A stretch of DNA of 37,349 nucleotides from Micrococcales bacterium (lineage in GTDB: Bacteria; Actinomycetota; Actinomycetes; Actinomycetales; Microbacteriaceae), in contig CANGEU010000013.1 of assembly GCA_947452985.1 (NCBI GenBank), positions 1 to 37,349 on the forward strand, written 5' to 3'. The notes under the pieces are model-generated. The model did not search any database, was not told the DNA's origin, and was given only the letters and a program-made list of their open reading frames with translations. Made by a program: the position numbers and the translations under genes. Shown one piece after another: positions 10,833 through 32,221 of the stretch (positions are counted from its first letter, which is position 1; each line of letters begins with the position of its first letter).

Positions 10833-12224
10833 TTATTTGTGTTTTGACTTAATGGTGTCGGTCAAATCGGTGACCGTGTTGTAGATAGTGCGGTCGATGC
10901 TCATCGACTCAGCAATCTTTTTAGCGGCGTACATCACAGTGGTGTGGTCGCGGTTTCCAAACAGCTGGCCGATTTTTGGAAGGGACAGGTTTGTTTGGTC
11001 TCGGCAAATGTACATTGCTACCTGGCGGGCCGTTGCAATGTGGGCTACGCGGGAGTTACCGGATAGGTCATCGACAGTGAGTCCAAAGTGAGAGGCCACG
11101 GCATTCATGATCTCGACTGGGGTAATCATTGCTTCTTGATTTAGAGGCGAACGATCCTTGAGAACCGTCTTTACCAAATTCATGTCGATAGGGATACGGC
11201 TCAAATTAGCAAAAGCTGTAATTCGAATAAGAGTTCCCTCAAGTTCGCGCACGTTGCTTGAAACTCGCTCGGCAATGTATTCAAGGATCTCGTCGGCCAT
11301 GCGGACCTTCTCAATCTCGGCCTTCTTGCGCAAGATCGCGATGCGAGTCTCCAGGGCCGGAGCTGAAACCTGCAGCATCAGACCCATTTCGAATCGAGAC
11401 CTCATGCGGTCCTCAAATCCGGTCAGCTGATTAGGCGAAACGTCGCTCGAGATCACAACTTGCTTGTTGTTCCGGTATAGGTCTTCAAAAGTGTGGAAGA
11501 AGGTTTCCTGGGTCTGGTCTTTACCTTGCAGGAATTGGATGTCGTCGATTAGGAGAATGTCTACCTGACGATATTCGTTCTGGAACTCGTGAGCCTTGTT
11601 ATTGGCGATTGCATTGATGTAGTGGTTGGTGAACTCTTCGCTCGAAACATAGCGAACCTTATAGTCCGGATATAGATTCAAAGCCTCATTACCAATGGCA
11701 TGTAAAAGGTGTGTTTTTCCAAGCCCTGAGTTTCCGTGAATGAACAGCGGGTTGTAACCTTGCGCGGGAGCATTGGCAACTGCCCAGGCTGCTGCACGTG
11801 CAAATGAGTTTGATTCACCCAAAACGAAACTGTCAAATGTGTACCGAGGGTTCAATCGGGTTTCGAAGTTGTTGGTTGCTCCGGAGTAATTAGCGTTTTC
11901 TGGCCGAGGTTCAACGAAGATATCCGCTGGTCCTTGGTCAACAAAAGTTGGCTCAATGTTTGGGTTTGTCGTCACACGAAACTGCAGGGTGCTGCCGGAT
12001 TCGGTGTTAAGTTTTAGAGCTTCCTCAATGTAGCCGCGAATTCTCTGATCGAGCATTGATCGAGCCAGGTCGTTTGGCACCTCAAGATAAAGAGTCTCGT
12101 TAATGATTCCCTGAGCCTCGGCAAGTTCCAGAAAGCCGTGCATGGCAGGAGTAATTCGGGAGTCGTGCTTCAGGATGTCGCGTGTGGTTCGCCAAAGAGT
12201 CTCTGTTCTGACCAGGTCGTCCAC
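10833..12224 (-). CDS. dnaA: Chromosomal replication initiator protein DnaA
   Basis: An AAA+ initiator of 463 residues that binds DnaA boxes and opens oriC. Domain I spans about residues 1-80 and a short linker domain II about 85-120. The AAA+ core has Walker A GNSGLGKT at 164-171 and Walker B ILLIDDIQF with the Asp pair at 227-228. The C-terminal DNA-binding domain includes LPKIGQLFGNRDHTTVMYA. The start is GTG at 12224 with AAAGGGG about 5 bp upstream. Domain II is much shorter than the long linker of Streptomyces. DnaA boxes on both sides suggest autoregulation. Confidence 0.98.
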   Translation of the reverse strand: MDDLVRTETLWRTTRDILKHDSRITPAMHGFLELAEAQGIINETLYLEVPNDLARSMLDQRIRGYIEEALKLNTESGSTLQFRVTTNPNIEPTFVDQGPADIFVEPRPENANYSGATNNFETRLNPRYTFDSFVLGESNSFARAAAWAVANAPAQGYNPLFIHGNSGLGKTHLLHAIGNEALNLYPDYKVRYVSSEEFTNHYINAIANNKAHEFQNEYRQVDILLIDDIQFLQGKDQTQETFFHTFEDLYRNNKQVVISSDVSPNQLTGFEDRMRSRFEMGLMLQVSAPALETRIAILRKKAEIEKVRMADEILEYIAERVSSNVRELEGTLIRITAFANLSRIPIDMNLVKTVLKDRSPLNQEAMITPVEIMNAVASHFGLTVDDLSGNSRVAHIATARQVAMYICRDQTNLSLPKIGQLFGNRDHTTVMYAAKKIAESMSIDRTIYNTVTDLTDTIKSKHK

Positions 12225-26486: not shown

Positions 26487-26939
26487 ATGTCGAAGGTTAT
26501 TCTGACTAACGAAGTTTCCGGCCTAGGTTCTGCAGGAGATGTTGTTGAAGTAAAGAACGGTTACGCACGTAACTACCTAGTTCCTCAGGGCTTTGCTGTC
26601 CTTTGGACCAAGGGTGGCGAGAAGCAGGTCGACCAGATCAAGGCTGCTCGTAACGCACGCGCAATCGCAACCGTTGAGGAAGCACAGACTCTCAAGGCTC
26701 GCCTTGAGGAGAAGGCTATCCGCCTAAACGCCAAGGCTGGTGTTGAGGGTCGTCTATTCGGCGCAATCAAGACCGCTGACATTGCTTCGGCAATCGTTGA
26801 GGCCGGCCTGGGTGAAGTTGACAAGCGCAAGATCGAGCTTTCTGCTCCGATCAAGGTTGCTGGAAACCACTCGGCTACCGTTCGTCTTCACGACGGCGTT
26901 GTAGCTAACATCACCGTCCAGGTGGTTGGCAAGAAGTAG
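26487..26939 (+). CDS. rplI: 50S ribosomal protein L9
   Basis: A 150-residue L9 with the standard N-terminal domain [35 protein letters not shown], a connecting helix near 45-80 and a C-terminal domain with [22 protein letters not shown] precedes the ATG. It is the last gene of the rpsF operon and is followed by a strong terminator, so dnaB needs its own promoter. Confidence 0.97.
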
Positions 26940-26956
26940 TTCCTTTTAGGAATTTA

Positions 26957-26984
26957 GGTGGTGGGCGAAAGCCCACCACCTTTT
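26957..26984 (+). terminator. Strong terminator after rplI
   Basis: GGTGGTGGGC and GCCCACCACC form a perfect 10-bp stem closed by a GAAA tetraloop, followed by TTTT. It lies 17 bp past the rplI stop and cleanly separates the ribosomal operon from the DnaA-box region before dnaB. Confidence 0.95.
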
Positions 26985-26993
26985 GCTTTAACC

Positions 26994-27214
26994 TGTGGAT
27001 AAGTGTGGATAACTCCAGTTTTTAAAGCTTCAACCTTCAAGTTATCCAAAGGTTCAGGTGAATGTTTAGGGTTTGTTAACCTTAGTTATACACAGGTAGA
27101 AACCAATAAAACACAGGCATCTCGCAATCTTTCCACAATCTATCCACAGGTTGTCCACAAGTTACTCACATATCTCATGGCGTGTTTCCACAGTTATCCA
27201 CATTTCTATCCACA
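26994..27214. promoter_or_regulatory. Dense DnaA-box cluster in the rplI-dnaB gap
   Basis: This 342-bp gap, 15 kb from oriC, has four perfect TTATNCACA boxes: 26994-27002 (minus), 27004-27012 (minus), 27086-27094 (plus, TTATACACA) and 27194-27202 (plus). One-mismatch boxes are at 27042-27050, 27140-27148, 27151-27159 and 27206-27214, and a weaker TTACTCACA is at 27162-27170. No AT-rich unwinding tract like that at 10571 is visible. It contains more boxes than either arm of oriC. The likely roles are DnaA titration and/or DnaA control of dnaB. Confidence 0.85.
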
Positions 27215-27231
27215 GGACGATTGGATATAGT
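27203..27231 (+). promoter_or_regulatory. Probable dnaB promoter overlapping DnaA boxes
   Basis: TATAGT at 27226-27231 is a good -10. At 17-bp spacing, TTTCTA (27203-27208) is a poor -35, as expected for an activated or repressed promoter. The box at 27206-27214 overlaps the -35/spacer and the perfect box at 27194-27202 abuts it. The predicted leader is about 45 nt. Confidence 0.45.
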
Positions 27232-27281
27232 GCTGTCGGTGCTCCATGCTAGACAGGACTCGTAAGTATTTAGGGGAGCAA

Positions 27282-28637
27282 ATGGCACAGGTACAGAACA
27301 CCGTGGCGGAACAAACGTCATCGATTGAACGCTCCCTACCCAACGACATGATGGCCGAGCAGTCAGTTCTCGGCGGCATGCTGATCTCGATGGACGCGGT
27401 TGCCGTGGTCAACGAATACATCAAGTCACCAGACTTCTACGCACCAAAACACGAAGTAACCTTCGACGCCATCATGAGCCTCTTCGCTAAAGGCGAGCCG
27501 GTCGACGCCATCTCGGTTTCAGCCGAGCTAACCCGCTCGGGAACCCTGGTTCGAGCCGGCGGCGCCGACTACATCCACTCGCTCACCAGCATCGTTCCAA
27601 CAGCAGCCAACGTTGCCTACTACGCCAAGATCGTTCAAGAAAAGTCGATTCTGCGAAAGCTCGTAGAAGTTGGCACCCGCATTGCCCAAATGGGTTACGC
27701 AGCAGAAGGTGAACTCGACGATCTAATTAACGTAGCCCAAGCCGACATCTACGCGGTTGGTTCCAAGGCGCTCTCAGACGAATACTCACCGCTCAGTGCC
27801 TCCATCGACGCCGCCATCACCGAGATGGAAATCGCCGAAGCCTCTGGCGACGAAGTTGTCGGTGTTCCAACCGGTTTCCACAAGTTAGATTCCATGACCC
27901 ACGGTCTTCACGGTGGTCAGATGATCATCGTGGCCGCTCGTCCTGGTGTTGGTAAGTCAACCTTCGCCCTCGATATCGCGCGAAACGGCGCATTCAAGCA
28001 CGACAAGCCAGTCCTTTTCTTCTCACTTGAAATGAGCAAGGCTGAAATCGCCATGCGTATGCTTTCGGCCGAAGCGGAAATCCACCTATCCAAGATGCGC
28101 GGTGGCAAGCTTTCCTCCGACGAATGGAAGAAGATGGCCTCGGTTCGTGGTCGAATCAACGACAAGCCACTCTTCATCGACGACAGCCCAAACCTAACCA
28201 TGGTGGAAATCCGCGCGAAAAGCCGCCGCCTAGCCCAAAACCTAGGCCTAGAACTAATTGTCATCGACTACCTTCAGCTACTTTCATCAGGTAAAAAGGT
28301 CGAATCGCGCCAGCAGGAAGTTTCCGAATTCTCTCGTTCGATCAAGCTACTTGCTAAGGAACTCAAGATTCCGGTAATCGCAATCGCTCAGCTAAACCGT
28401 AACTCGGAGCAAAAGGCCGATAAGAAGCCGGAAATCTCACACCTTCGTGAATCCGGATCGCTTGAGCAAGACGCCGACGTCGTAATCCTGCTTCACCGCG
28501 ACGACATGAACGACCCTGGTCACGAGCGCGCTGGCGAAGGCGACATCATTGTTGCTAAGCAGCGAAGCGGGCCAACCGGTACCGTTGCCGCCTACTTCCA
28601 AGGCCAGTATTCACGATTTGTGAACAAGGCAGACTAA
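27282..28637 (+). CDS. dnaB: Replicative DNA helicase DnaB
   Basis: A hexameric 5'-3' fork helicase. The start is set at ATG 27282 (451 residues) because AGGGGAG lies 5-6 bp upstream; an in-frame ATG at 27246 would add 12 residues. The N-terminal domain begins LPNDMMAEQSVLGGML. The RecA-like domain has Walker A RPGVGKST at 220-227, Walker B LIVIDYLQLL, and FSLEMSKAEIAMRML. No intein interrupts it, in contrast to mycobacterial DnaB. It probably works with the DUF721/DciA protein encoded near oriC. The stop overlaps the next ATG by 1 bp. Confidence 0.97.
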   Translation: MAQVQNTVAEQTSSIERSLPNDMMAEQSVLGGMLISMDAVAVVNEYIKSPDFYAPKHEVTFDAIMSLFAKGEPVDAISVSAELTRSGTLVRAGGADYIHSLTSIVPTAANVAYYAKIVQEKSILRKLVEVGTRIAQMGYAAEGELDDLINVAQADIYAVGSKALSDEYSPLSASIDAAITEMEIAEASGDEVVGVPTGFHKLDSMTHGLHGGQMIIVAARPGVGKSTFALDIARNGAFKHDKPVLFFSLEMSKAEIAMRMLSAEAEIHLSKMRGGKLSSDEWKKMASVRGRINDKPLFIDDSPNLTMVEIRAKSRRLAQNLGLELIVIDYLQLLSSGKKVESRQQEVSEFSRSIKLLAKELKIPVIAIAQLNRNSEQKADKKPEISHLRESGSLEQDADVVILLHRDDMNDPGHERAGEGDIIVAKQRSGPTGTVAAYFQGQYSRFVNKAD

Positions 28638-29155
28638 TGAACTGGTTGCAGACCACTCGCGCAGCAGCGCATGCTGCGGTTGCCGCGGCCATCACCTTCA
28701 GTCGCATTCACAGCAGCGAATTCGGGTTGAACATGCTGACCCTCTTTGGTGCCCTTTACTTAGCAGCCAGCCTCGGAACTCATTTTCTCGACAAACGCAA
28801 TAAAGTGATGTCCGCTCGCCTAGGGCTACCGGTCATCGCTCCGGTAATTACTGGAATCGCAGCGGTCTTTGCTATTGGCGCTGGTTGGAACCAACAGGCT
28901 TCCCTGCGTTGGCTGGTAGCCATTTTTGCCGCCGGTTTTGCCCTAACCGAATTGTGGTTGTCTCGAAAGCTCGGCACCAAAACCGTGGACGGACGAGATG
29001 CCCTGATCTCAGCCATCCTAGGTTTCGCACTACTTGGCCTTTTCGCCGGATTCGATATGGGCCGAGTGCCGTTTATCGGTTTCCTCGGAGCGTTCCACGC
29101 CATTCTTGCTGTACATCTGGGCATTGCCGCGGCAACACCAAAGCCAAAGAAGTAG
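28637..29155 (+). CDS. Small multi-pass membrane protein, unknown
   Basis: A 172-residue, strongly hydrophobic protein with about five membrane segments (near 32-50, 64-82, 90-108, 117-135 and 140-165) and a basic end PKPKK. I do not recognise a family. It begins in the TAATG overlap with the dnaB stop, so it is translated with dnaB, and is followed 9 bp later by another small membrane protein. Nothing in the sequence suggests a catalytic site. Confidence 0.75.
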   Translation: MNWLQTTRAAAHAAVAAAITFSRIHSSEFGLNMLTLFGALYLAASLGTHFLDKRNKVMSARLGLPVIAPVITGIAAVFAIGAGWNQQASLRWLVAIFAAGFALTELWLSRKLGTKTVDGRDALISAILGFALLGLFAGFDMGRVPFIGFLGAFHAILAVHLGIAAATPKPKK

Positions 29156-30810: not shown

Positions 30811-30819
30811 TTATCCACA
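30811..30819. promoter_or_regulatory. Single perfect DnaA box in the purB divergent promoter region
   Basis: TTATCCACA on the plus strand, 15 bp from the purB GTG and about 50 bp from the divergent small ORF. On the minus strand a CAAAAT hexamer lies at the leaderless -10 position for purB, so the box would overlap the promoter spacer. DnaA control is a guess from position. Confidence 0.5.
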
Positions 30820-30869: not shown

Positions 30870-31049
30870 ATGCACGAAGTTGAACCGTTACTGAATGAGC
30901 TAATTGCTCAGCTCGAATCGAGTAAGCCGAACCCGTTGCTTTGGAATTCATCGGCGGCCAGGGCATTAGAAGTCCAGTTGGTTGAATTACAAAATCGGTT
31001 GAGATTCTTACAAGCCAACCTGATTCACCTACCAAGGATTTCGTTATGA
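30870..31049 (+). CDS. Small WXG100-like helical protein, partner of the downstream hydrolase
   Basis: A 59-codon ORF starting MHEVEPLLNELIAQL and ending in an ATGA overlap with the next gene, which strongly supports it as real. The middle, LLWNSSAARALEVQLVELQ then NRLRFLQANL, follows the pattern of WXG100/ESX-type helical hairpins: a Trp turn, a small-residue pair Ala-Ala, then a Leu heptad. The WxG is here W-N-S (Trp25). No signal peptide. No Shine-Dalgarno sequence is visible. The likely role is a chaperone, partner or targeting subunit for the 391-residue hydrolase. The family call is tentative. Confidence 0.6.
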   Translation: MHEVEPLLNELIAQLESSKPNPLLWNSSAARALEVQLVELQNRLRFLQANLIHLPRISL

Positions 31050-32221
31050 GCGGGCTAGTTAGCTACGGCGGAGACCCAAGCGTCACCGTGGCCAGGTCCG
31101 AGATAGATCGCATCACAGCCGGTCTAGCCACGATTCAGGCTCGGCTAACCGACGAACTTCAACCGCTGGCTCAGCTGAACGGGCTGGTTCACCACCTGCA
31201 ACTCGATGCCCAGCTTCCAGAAACCCTGATTCGCTTGGGGTTGCAACGGCACGGCTGCTTTGTAGCTTCGGAAAGTTATTTCACCGGAGATGCACGAATT
31301 GCTCATCAGTTTTCGTCGATTGCCGATGTAATCCATTCAAACCCTTGGCTGAGGAAGGTCATTCCGAAACAGGTTTGGGTCGGTTTGGCGGCTGGCGTCG
31401 GGGTTTCTGCTTTTACGAATTCCAACCTGACTGCGCTGGGTGTTCGCGCCCTGGTTGGTGAAATACCTACCGATAAACTCGGCAACGCGATTTCAAAGTT
31501 GCCAGGTGGAGAGGCTCGGTTAATTCCAGCAACGCCTTCAGCGGTATATCAAAACCCCAAGTCACTCAATGGTTTAGCAAGCCGCCTAAACAATGAATCT
31601 GGAAACATTCGGCTAGAAAGCTATCAAACCCTGAAGGGCAGGCTAGTGGTTATGTACCTTCCCGGCACTGCTGACTGGAATCCAGTTTCGTCGACAAAAG
31701 CGTTCGACATCCGAAGCGATTTGGAACTTCTAGGAAATGGCGAAAAATCAACTTCATATCGAGCCGCTAACGCGGCTTTGGACGCCTTCGGCGTAACCAA
31801 GGGTGACCGGCTGATTCTGGTGGGTTATTCACAAGGTGGTCTAGTGGCCGCCGAGCTAGCCAATTCACACAAAAATATTGAAGCGATTGTGACCATGGGC
31901 TCTCCAATAGCTAATGAGGAGATTCCTTCCGAAGTGAAGGTGATTTCTCTCGAACACTCAAATGATGTTGTTCCTGCACTCAGCGGAGAGACAAATCCGA
32001 TGACCGAGAACTGGGCCACGGCATCAAGGCACGTCGATGTAAATCTTGGGGAAACAATTTTGAAAGCGCACGGAATGCATGAATATGTTCAGACGGCAAT
32101 GCTCGCCGACGACTCAACCGATTCGGGTTTGGTGAGATTACGAGGCGAAGTCTTGGATAACTTCTCCGGGGCCACTTTGCTTGGTGCTAAAGAGTACTCG
32201 CCGCTTAGAGCAGCTTCATAG
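31046..32221 (+). CDS. Alpha/beta hydrolase (lipase/esterase-like) with helical N-terminal domain
   Basis: A 391-residue protein. Residues 1-100 are largely helical and polar with no signal peptide, a weakly hydrophobic stretch lies at 109-135, and the hydrolase domain follows from about 195. The nucleophile elbow is GYSQGG with Ser262. The likely acid is Asp307 (EHSNDVVP) and the likely base is His345 (AHGMHEYV). The YLPGTADW stretch near 204 fits the oxyanion loop. The substrate is unknown; lipid or peptide-ester cleavage is possible. It overlaps the small WXG-like ORF by 4 bp, and its 3' end overlaps the convergent membrane-protein gene by 17 bp. No type VII secretion core genes are in view. 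Confidence 0.75.
   Translation: MSGLVSYGGDPSVTVARSEIDRITAGLATIQARLTDELQPLAQLNGLVHHLQLDAQLPETLIRLGLQRHGCFVASESYFTGDARIAHQFSSIADVIHSNPWLRKVIPKQVWVGLAAGVGVSAFTNSNLTALGVRALVGEIPTDKLGNAISKLPGGEARLIPATPSAVYQNPKSLNGLASRLNNESGNIRLESYQTLKGRLVVMYLPGTADWNPVSSTKAFDIRSDLELLGNGEKSTSYRAANAALDAFGVTKGDRLILVGYSQGGLVAAELANSHKNIEAIVTMGSPIANEEIPSEVKVISLEHSNDVVPALSGETNPMTENWATASRHVDVNLGETILKAHGMHEYVQTAMLADDSTDSGLVRLRGEVLDNFSGATLLGAKEYSPLRAAS

Follow-up and report, generated by a model that had tools for sequence, protein, structure and literature searches.

Directly upstream of the replicative helicase gene dnaB, the window (the whole stretch of 37,349 nucleotides analysed here, contig 13 of a 1.42-Mb draft assembly with 39 contigs and 92% completeness) contains a dense cluster of DnaA boxes between positions 26994 and 27214. 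We consider that this cluster probably acts as a DnaA-responsive control of dnaB, in either direction, a reading to which we would give a probability of about 0.68 from the sequence features described below. As a row of DnaA sites in 11-base steps stands before dnaB family-wide, initiation of replication is probably coupled to helicase supply.

The gap between rplI and dnaB is 342 bp long, the length given by an earlier reading made from the sequence only, if the ATG at 27282 is taken as the start of dnaB; this codon was chosen for the preceding GGGGAG, and there is another in-frame ATG at 27246. The genes rpsF, ssb and rplI precede the gap, and dnaB follows it (27282 to 28637, plus strand; 502 bits against TIGR00665, cut-off 385), with 84% DnaB identity to the closest named relative, Rhodoluna limnophila (L002). 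A terminator-like hairpin after rplI (26956 to 26981, plus strand), with an 11-bp stem containing eight G-C pairs and a T-rich tail, was found too in an inverted-repeat search, and it parts rplI and the ribosomal-protein and ssb genes upstream of it from the array and dnaB. An RNA element in 26900 to 27320 was rejected, there being no Rfam match up to E = 1. At its other end, dnaB is overlapped by one base by an ORF of 172 aa (28637 to 29155, plus strand) with no NCBIfam or Pfam match. The dnaA gene (10833 to 12224, minus strand) adjoins dnaN, and the dnaA-dnaN neighbourhood is the usual place of oriC.

Where the sequence-only reading had listed four perfect boxes and at least four with one mismatch, we counted four perfect TTATNCACA boxes (26994 and 27004 on the minus strand, 27086 and 27194 on the plus strand) and five one-mismatch boxes (27042, 27140, 27151, 27162 and 27206, all on the plus strand). 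The array begins with two perfect boxes, TTATCCACA, on the minus strand, 10 bp apart (26994 to 27012). On the plus strand follow the one-mismatch box TTATCCAAA (27042 to 27050), the perfect box TTATACACA (27086 to 27094) and a run of four boxes in exact 11-bp steps (27129 to 27170), composed of the weak CTTTCCACA at 27129, which matches at 7 of 9 positions, CTATCCACA at 27140, TTGTCCACA at 27151 and TTACTCACA at 27162. A separate repeat search of the window likewise returned four copies with steps of 11, 11 and 11. Neither this regular run nor the hairpin after rplI had been listed in the sequence-only reading. The array ends with a proximal double box (27194 to 27214, plus strand), in which the perfect TTATCCACA (27194) and CTATCCACA (27206) are 12 bp apart; it represents registers -12 and 0 and was used as the anchor of the array. 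The gap was correctly said to hold more boxes than either arm of oriC, each of which has three perfect boxes together with two (dnaN side) or one (rpmH side) of one mismatch.

Perfect TTATNCACA boxes number 12 in the 37-kb window against 0.74 expected, and sites with at most one mismatch 37 against 17.7 expected. In the whole assembly there are 38 perfect boxes (9 for the reversed motif), and only the two oriC arms and the rplI-dnaB gap have at least two of them within 500 bp. Single perfect boxes were also seen at 30811 to 30819, within purB, and at 31825 to 31833, within an ORF at 31046 to 32221. Two genomes of the same genus consist of a single contig, and their dnaB gaps contain six (G010) and three (G092) perfect boxes. 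Away from dnaB and the dnaA region, pairs within 300 bp occur twice in G010, at distances of 27 and 232 bp, and never in G092, and neither genome has a further group of three perfect boxes within 300 bp. Three further relatives were covered in full by a listing of perfect boxes: G013 and G095 have six and five at dnaB and a single close pair each in the rest of the genome, at distances of 10 and 24 bp, and G059 has no more than two at dnaB. The objection that such clusters might be common by chance does not hold, as they are rare both in the assembly and in the genomes of the relatives examined.

Conservation was assessed by counting YTRTNCACA boxes in the region before dnaB, with the reversed motif as a control. 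The family set of 120 genomes, including that of the window (G000), gave 119 loci after removal of G012 and G083, which have no full dnaB, and addition of G168; for 14 of these loci no rplI was detected in the stretch, and the 650 bp before dnaB were taken instead. At least one box was present in 114 of the 119 loci, at least two in 107 and at least three in 76 (window included), while the reversed motif occurred once in 18 loci and twice in none. Altogether, the family loci contain 355 boxes versus 18 in the control, and the 105 loci with rplI next door contain 309 versus 18. Conservation of the boxes in relatives, put forward by the sequence-only reading as a check, is thus borne out, and a chance origin of the cluster was rejected by the box counts in the window, the assembly and the family loci. 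Seven family loci have a single box, and five (G005, G015, G016, G097 and G109) have none before dnaB, possibly through natural loss.

Wider samples, largely genomes with the best DnaB matches, comprised 40 loci from 55 genomes of the order, 26 from the class (27 of 55 genomes, one of them without upstream bases) and 28 from 55 genomes of the phylum outside the class. In the order, 28 of 40 loci have at least one box, 21 at least two and 12 none; in the class, the corresponding numbers are 23, 13 and 3 of 26. None of the 28 loci outside the class has two boxes, with two boxes in 24.9 kb altogether, so that among the genomes examined the element is confined to this class.

The array belongs to dnaB rather than to rplI. 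Out of 28 rplI loci, 25 were used, the other three having rplI and dnaB on different contigs. The 700 bp after rplI contain no box in any of the 23 order and class genomes whose dnaB is more than 1.3 kb away, and an rplI-linked element was rejected on this ground; in two more genomes, with dnaB about 0.8 kb from rplI, boxes are present after rplI. Nor does the array need closeness to the origin: six boxes are kept in G001, where dnaB lies 452 kb from dnaA, and three, five and four in G017, G098 and G019, where the distance is 39-51 kb. In G015, a genome of 0.9 Mb, dnaB is about 76 kb from dnaA and has no boxes. In many complete genomes the array is about 15-25 kb from dnaA and is therefore replicated early.

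The geometry of the array was analysed in 130 loci, the 119 of the family and 11 named ones (L001-L010 and L060, of which L008-L010 and L060 come from other families). Boxes are on the plus strand in 375 cases versus 27 on the minus strand alone, so that the pair at 26994 and 27004 in the window represents the minority orientation. The peaks of the same-strand spacings include 12, 23, 32, 44, 55, 67, 122, 133, 145, 156, 177 and 189 bp. A period of 11.1 bp fits best (R = 0.785, from 479 pairs that are not independent because the loci share ancestry); 300 randomised placements reached at most 0.292. For sixteen spacing peaks R was 0.895, and none of 5000 random sets was as high. The better evidence for a lattice comes from the order, where the period was fixed beforehand and 45 same-strand pairs gave a mean cosine of 0.666, attained by none of 5000 random sets. 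Outside the order, the genomes of the class gave no significant 11.1-bp phase (11 pairs; 951 of 5000).

Weak boxes follow the same lattice. Where a strict box is absent, a box matching at six of nine positions occurs at frequencies of 0.87 at register -12, 0.69 at -44, 0.79 at -55, 0.65 at -67 and 0.55 at -134, with a background of 0.036. Counted from 27206, the plus-strand boxes of the window, weak ones included, lie at 0, -12, -22, -44, -55, -66, -77, -99, -120 and -164, of which -120 and -164 show a poorer fit. The four-box run at 27129, 27140, 27151 and 27162 occupies registers -77, -66, -55 and -44, and the conserved registers include -66/-67, -55 and -44.

Promoter elements were counted in the 105 of the 130 loci with two or more boxes on the anchor template; 18 loci with one and seven with none were omitted. 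In 83 of these 105 loci a TTG follows the proximal box at a distance of 7 or 8 bp, and other offsets more than one base away account for at most six loci each, a comparison between offsets rather than with shuffled sequences. At least 71 of the 105 also have TAnnnT, at 16-18 bp beyond the -35 hexamer. From these positions, the proximal double box would therefore lie just upstream of a sigma70-like promoter. The tie to the dnaB promoter suggested by the sequence-only reading thus appears well supported, the array going with dnaB and usually abutting a conserved predicted promoter; boxes at the promoter, in numbers beyond chance and conserved, are what a DnaA-regulated promoter is expected to show.

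The promoter of the window differs from the family's sigma70-like pattern, and a scan of the window with the sigma70 consensus returned no plain sigma70 promoter. PafBC (RecA-NDp) promoters have the motif TTGTCRGTG-N8-TAnnnT. In the clade of the window a PafBC-like motif lies directly behind the array, and we regard this sequence (27234 to 27255, plus strand), a PafBC/RecA-NDp-like TGTCGGTG-N8-TAGACA, as the candidate dnaB promoter of that clade; L001, L002, G010, G092 and G013 have the same layout. TGTCGGTG, the 8-base spacer and the TA agree with the PafBC motif, while its initial T and the final T of TAnnnT differ (CTGTCGGTG, TAGACA). With at most one mismatch, TGTCRGTR-N8-TAKA is present within the 400 bp preceding dnaB in 41 of 119 family loci, nine of them exact, against none on the other strand and none in both reversed controls, so that DNA damage may induce dnaB in many members of the family. 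At two mismatches the count was 73 loci versus 9, 3 and 10 in the three controls. Over the whole genome the looser TGTCRGTR-N8-TA was not enriched (7 matches versus 9 in the control). A PafBC-like motif before dnaB was also noticed in L001, L002 and L222. The genome carries two adjacent WYL-domain genes, as would be expected for pafB-pafC, and this promoter type extends beyond mycobacteria (passages of PMC8223512). In M. tuberculosis, the passages of PMC8151990 that concern dnaB describe a response to mitomycin C, partly via PafBC, and a dnaB level that is still raised with both RecA and PafBC down.

Between the groups of boxes, the family also shares a conserved motif that is not a DnaA box, GGCGTTTC(N)CGC, of which the window has the diverged form GGCGTGTTTC (27179 to 27188, plus strand); CGGCGTTTCNCGC is a fuller consensus form of GGCGTTTC. 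This GGCGTTTCNCGC motif, as GGCGTTTC or GCGTTTCNCGC, occurs in 76 of 119 family loci in the forward direction, in two on the other strand and in none when reversed. As a motif shared with oriC, GGCGTTTC was rejected, for it is absent from 21 of 21 oriC regions. Two more conserved stretches, approximately AAANNCCTGGTCAGA and AACNTTCAA, were seen in the family array consensus at roughly -113 to -95 and -165 to -150, counted from the proximal box; their short forms occur in 36 and 32 of 119 loci, respectively, with 2-4 in controls.

A region so rich in boxes could belong to the replication origin as its third part, or be the true origin itself. Over 20 genomes the mean number of boxes is 1.45 on the rpmH-dnaA side, 2.55 on the dnaA-dnaN side and 2.9 at dnaB, where it equals or exceeds the richer oriC arm in 14 genomes, and G010 has a local cumulative GC-skew minimum at -17.5 to -15 kb, nearer dnaB. 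GC skew was weak overall, too weak to serve as an origin test. AT skew in eight genomes was negative between dnaB and dnaA in all eight and positive beyond dnaA in seven; its change leans towards dnaA as the origin, a weak lean because the skew beyond dnaB, mixed as an origin there would allow, was negative in only four. The skew evidence on the origin, for which the sequence-only reading had proposed GC skew, thus leans weakly to dnaA in its AT part and gives little signal in its GC part. Since, moreover, the array moves off from dnaA together with dnaB and its extra motif GGCGTTTC is missing from oriC, we consider an origin role for the dnaB gap, as a third part or as the true origin, highly improbable. 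An element resetting the DnaA nucleotide, like DARS, which releases ADP from DnaA, or datA, which stimulates ATP hydrolysis, would also be an intergenic DnaA-box cluster outside oriC, and the sequence-only reading had drawn this parallel. Nothing found at the dnaB gap supports it; boxes set in tandem on one strand and tied to a single promoter are not known as a hallmark of DARS or datA. The described datA holds an IHF site (passages of PMC5742627). Such an element seems very improbable too.

Several perfect boxes grouped outside oriC, with an affinity predicted from sequence, are also what a titration cluster would present. The array would then be a DnaA sink near oriC, like those of B. subtilis and Streptomyces, where such clusters are named H69, H24 and D78; it would mop up DnaA after initiation and stand before dnaB incidentally. 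Its box density and its position relative to dnaA in many complete genomes agree with this, and the clusters of B. subtilis and S. coelicolor repress untimely initiation (passages of PMC5742627). But the array follows dnaB and not the origin, as the displaced loci of G001, G019, G098 and G017 demonstrate, and a sink would need neither promoter phasing nor boxes mostly on one strand. We therefore hold titration to be unlikely as the main role; it may coexist with promoter control, and could be a side effect of it. A closer rival, differing from the preferred reading in direction, is that DnaA shuts off dnaB as it does at its own promoter. The short distance from the proximal box to the -35 element would suit a repressor, and DnaA represses dnaA and, at high ATP-DnaA, nrdAB (passages of PMC8203912). 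Against this, the -35 element is downstream of the anchored boxes, and the I282T variant of M. tuberculosis DnaA, which binds less upstream of dnaB, under-expresses dnaB (passages of PMC7738170). Repression thus seems rather unlikely. It is because of this variant, one published variant in another genus, that we infer activation of dnaB by the array, at odds that we judge about even.

Under DnaA-responsive control of dnaB in its activating form, DnaA would bind the anchor boxes before dnaB and then spread cooperatively, head to tail, over the weaker boxes along the lattice of about 11 bp, which leaves 2-3 bp between boxes. The assembly would end next to RNA polymerase, which it would assist, at the promoter 7-8 bp downstream of the proximal box. 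Plentiful active DnaA would probably raise dnaB transcription, so that the supply of helicase keeps pace with initiation, and dnaB may also be raised by DNA damage through a second promoter, the PafBC-like one. More tentatively, the strong and weak boxes, about 200 bp with 18 registers, might support an orisome-like DnaA filament that responds cooperatively to active DnaA, in the manner of oriC, and fires dnaB at the time of origin opening, with the PafBC-type promoter serving DNA damage and the GGCGTTTCNCGC site between the box groups admitting a further regulator. To our knowledge, little is known of how helicase supply is matched to initiation outside model species. If the model is correct, one element would join the initiator, the helicase gene and possibly the DNA-damage response across the family and in part of the class, and the 11-bp geometry would offer a natural set of variants for studying DnaA assembly away from the origin.

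DnaA at dnaB is already known in mycobacteria, and in C. crescentus by regulon. The Rv0057 region of Mycobacterium presumably lies between rplI and dnaB. In this related actinobacterium there is likewise a DnaA site before the helicase gene, the region being one of five strongly bound ones, and DnaA of M. tuberculosis binds in vitro upstream of dnaB, the M. smegmatis homologue being bound in vivo (passages of PMC7738170 on Mycobacterium); those passages do not contain the lattice, box architecture, promoter phasing and taxonomic range described here. In C. crescentus, of another phylum, DnaA boxes are predicted upstream of dnaB, and dnaB responds to dnaA transcription (Hottes 2005, cited in PMC8203912); a dense array is not described for it in the passages of PMC8203912 concerned. 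Our literature search, which covered few subscription journals, found no description of the array in Microbacteriaceae, and on this weak evidence the array, being dense, phased and directional, appears new relative to the literature covered, as do its reach and the way it is coupled to two promoters. The B. subtilis and S. coelicolor clusters outside oriC are likewise box clusters of Gram-positive bacteria, and the role described for them is restraint of initiation (as cited in PMC13220808 and PMC5742627). E. coli DnaA prefers box pairs 2-3 bp apart (passages of PMC11317965), and such double boxes share their 11-12-bp steps with the proximal double box and the box run. Unlike the E. coli doubles, the array described here sets up to 10 plus-strand boxes, weak ones included, before a single gene.
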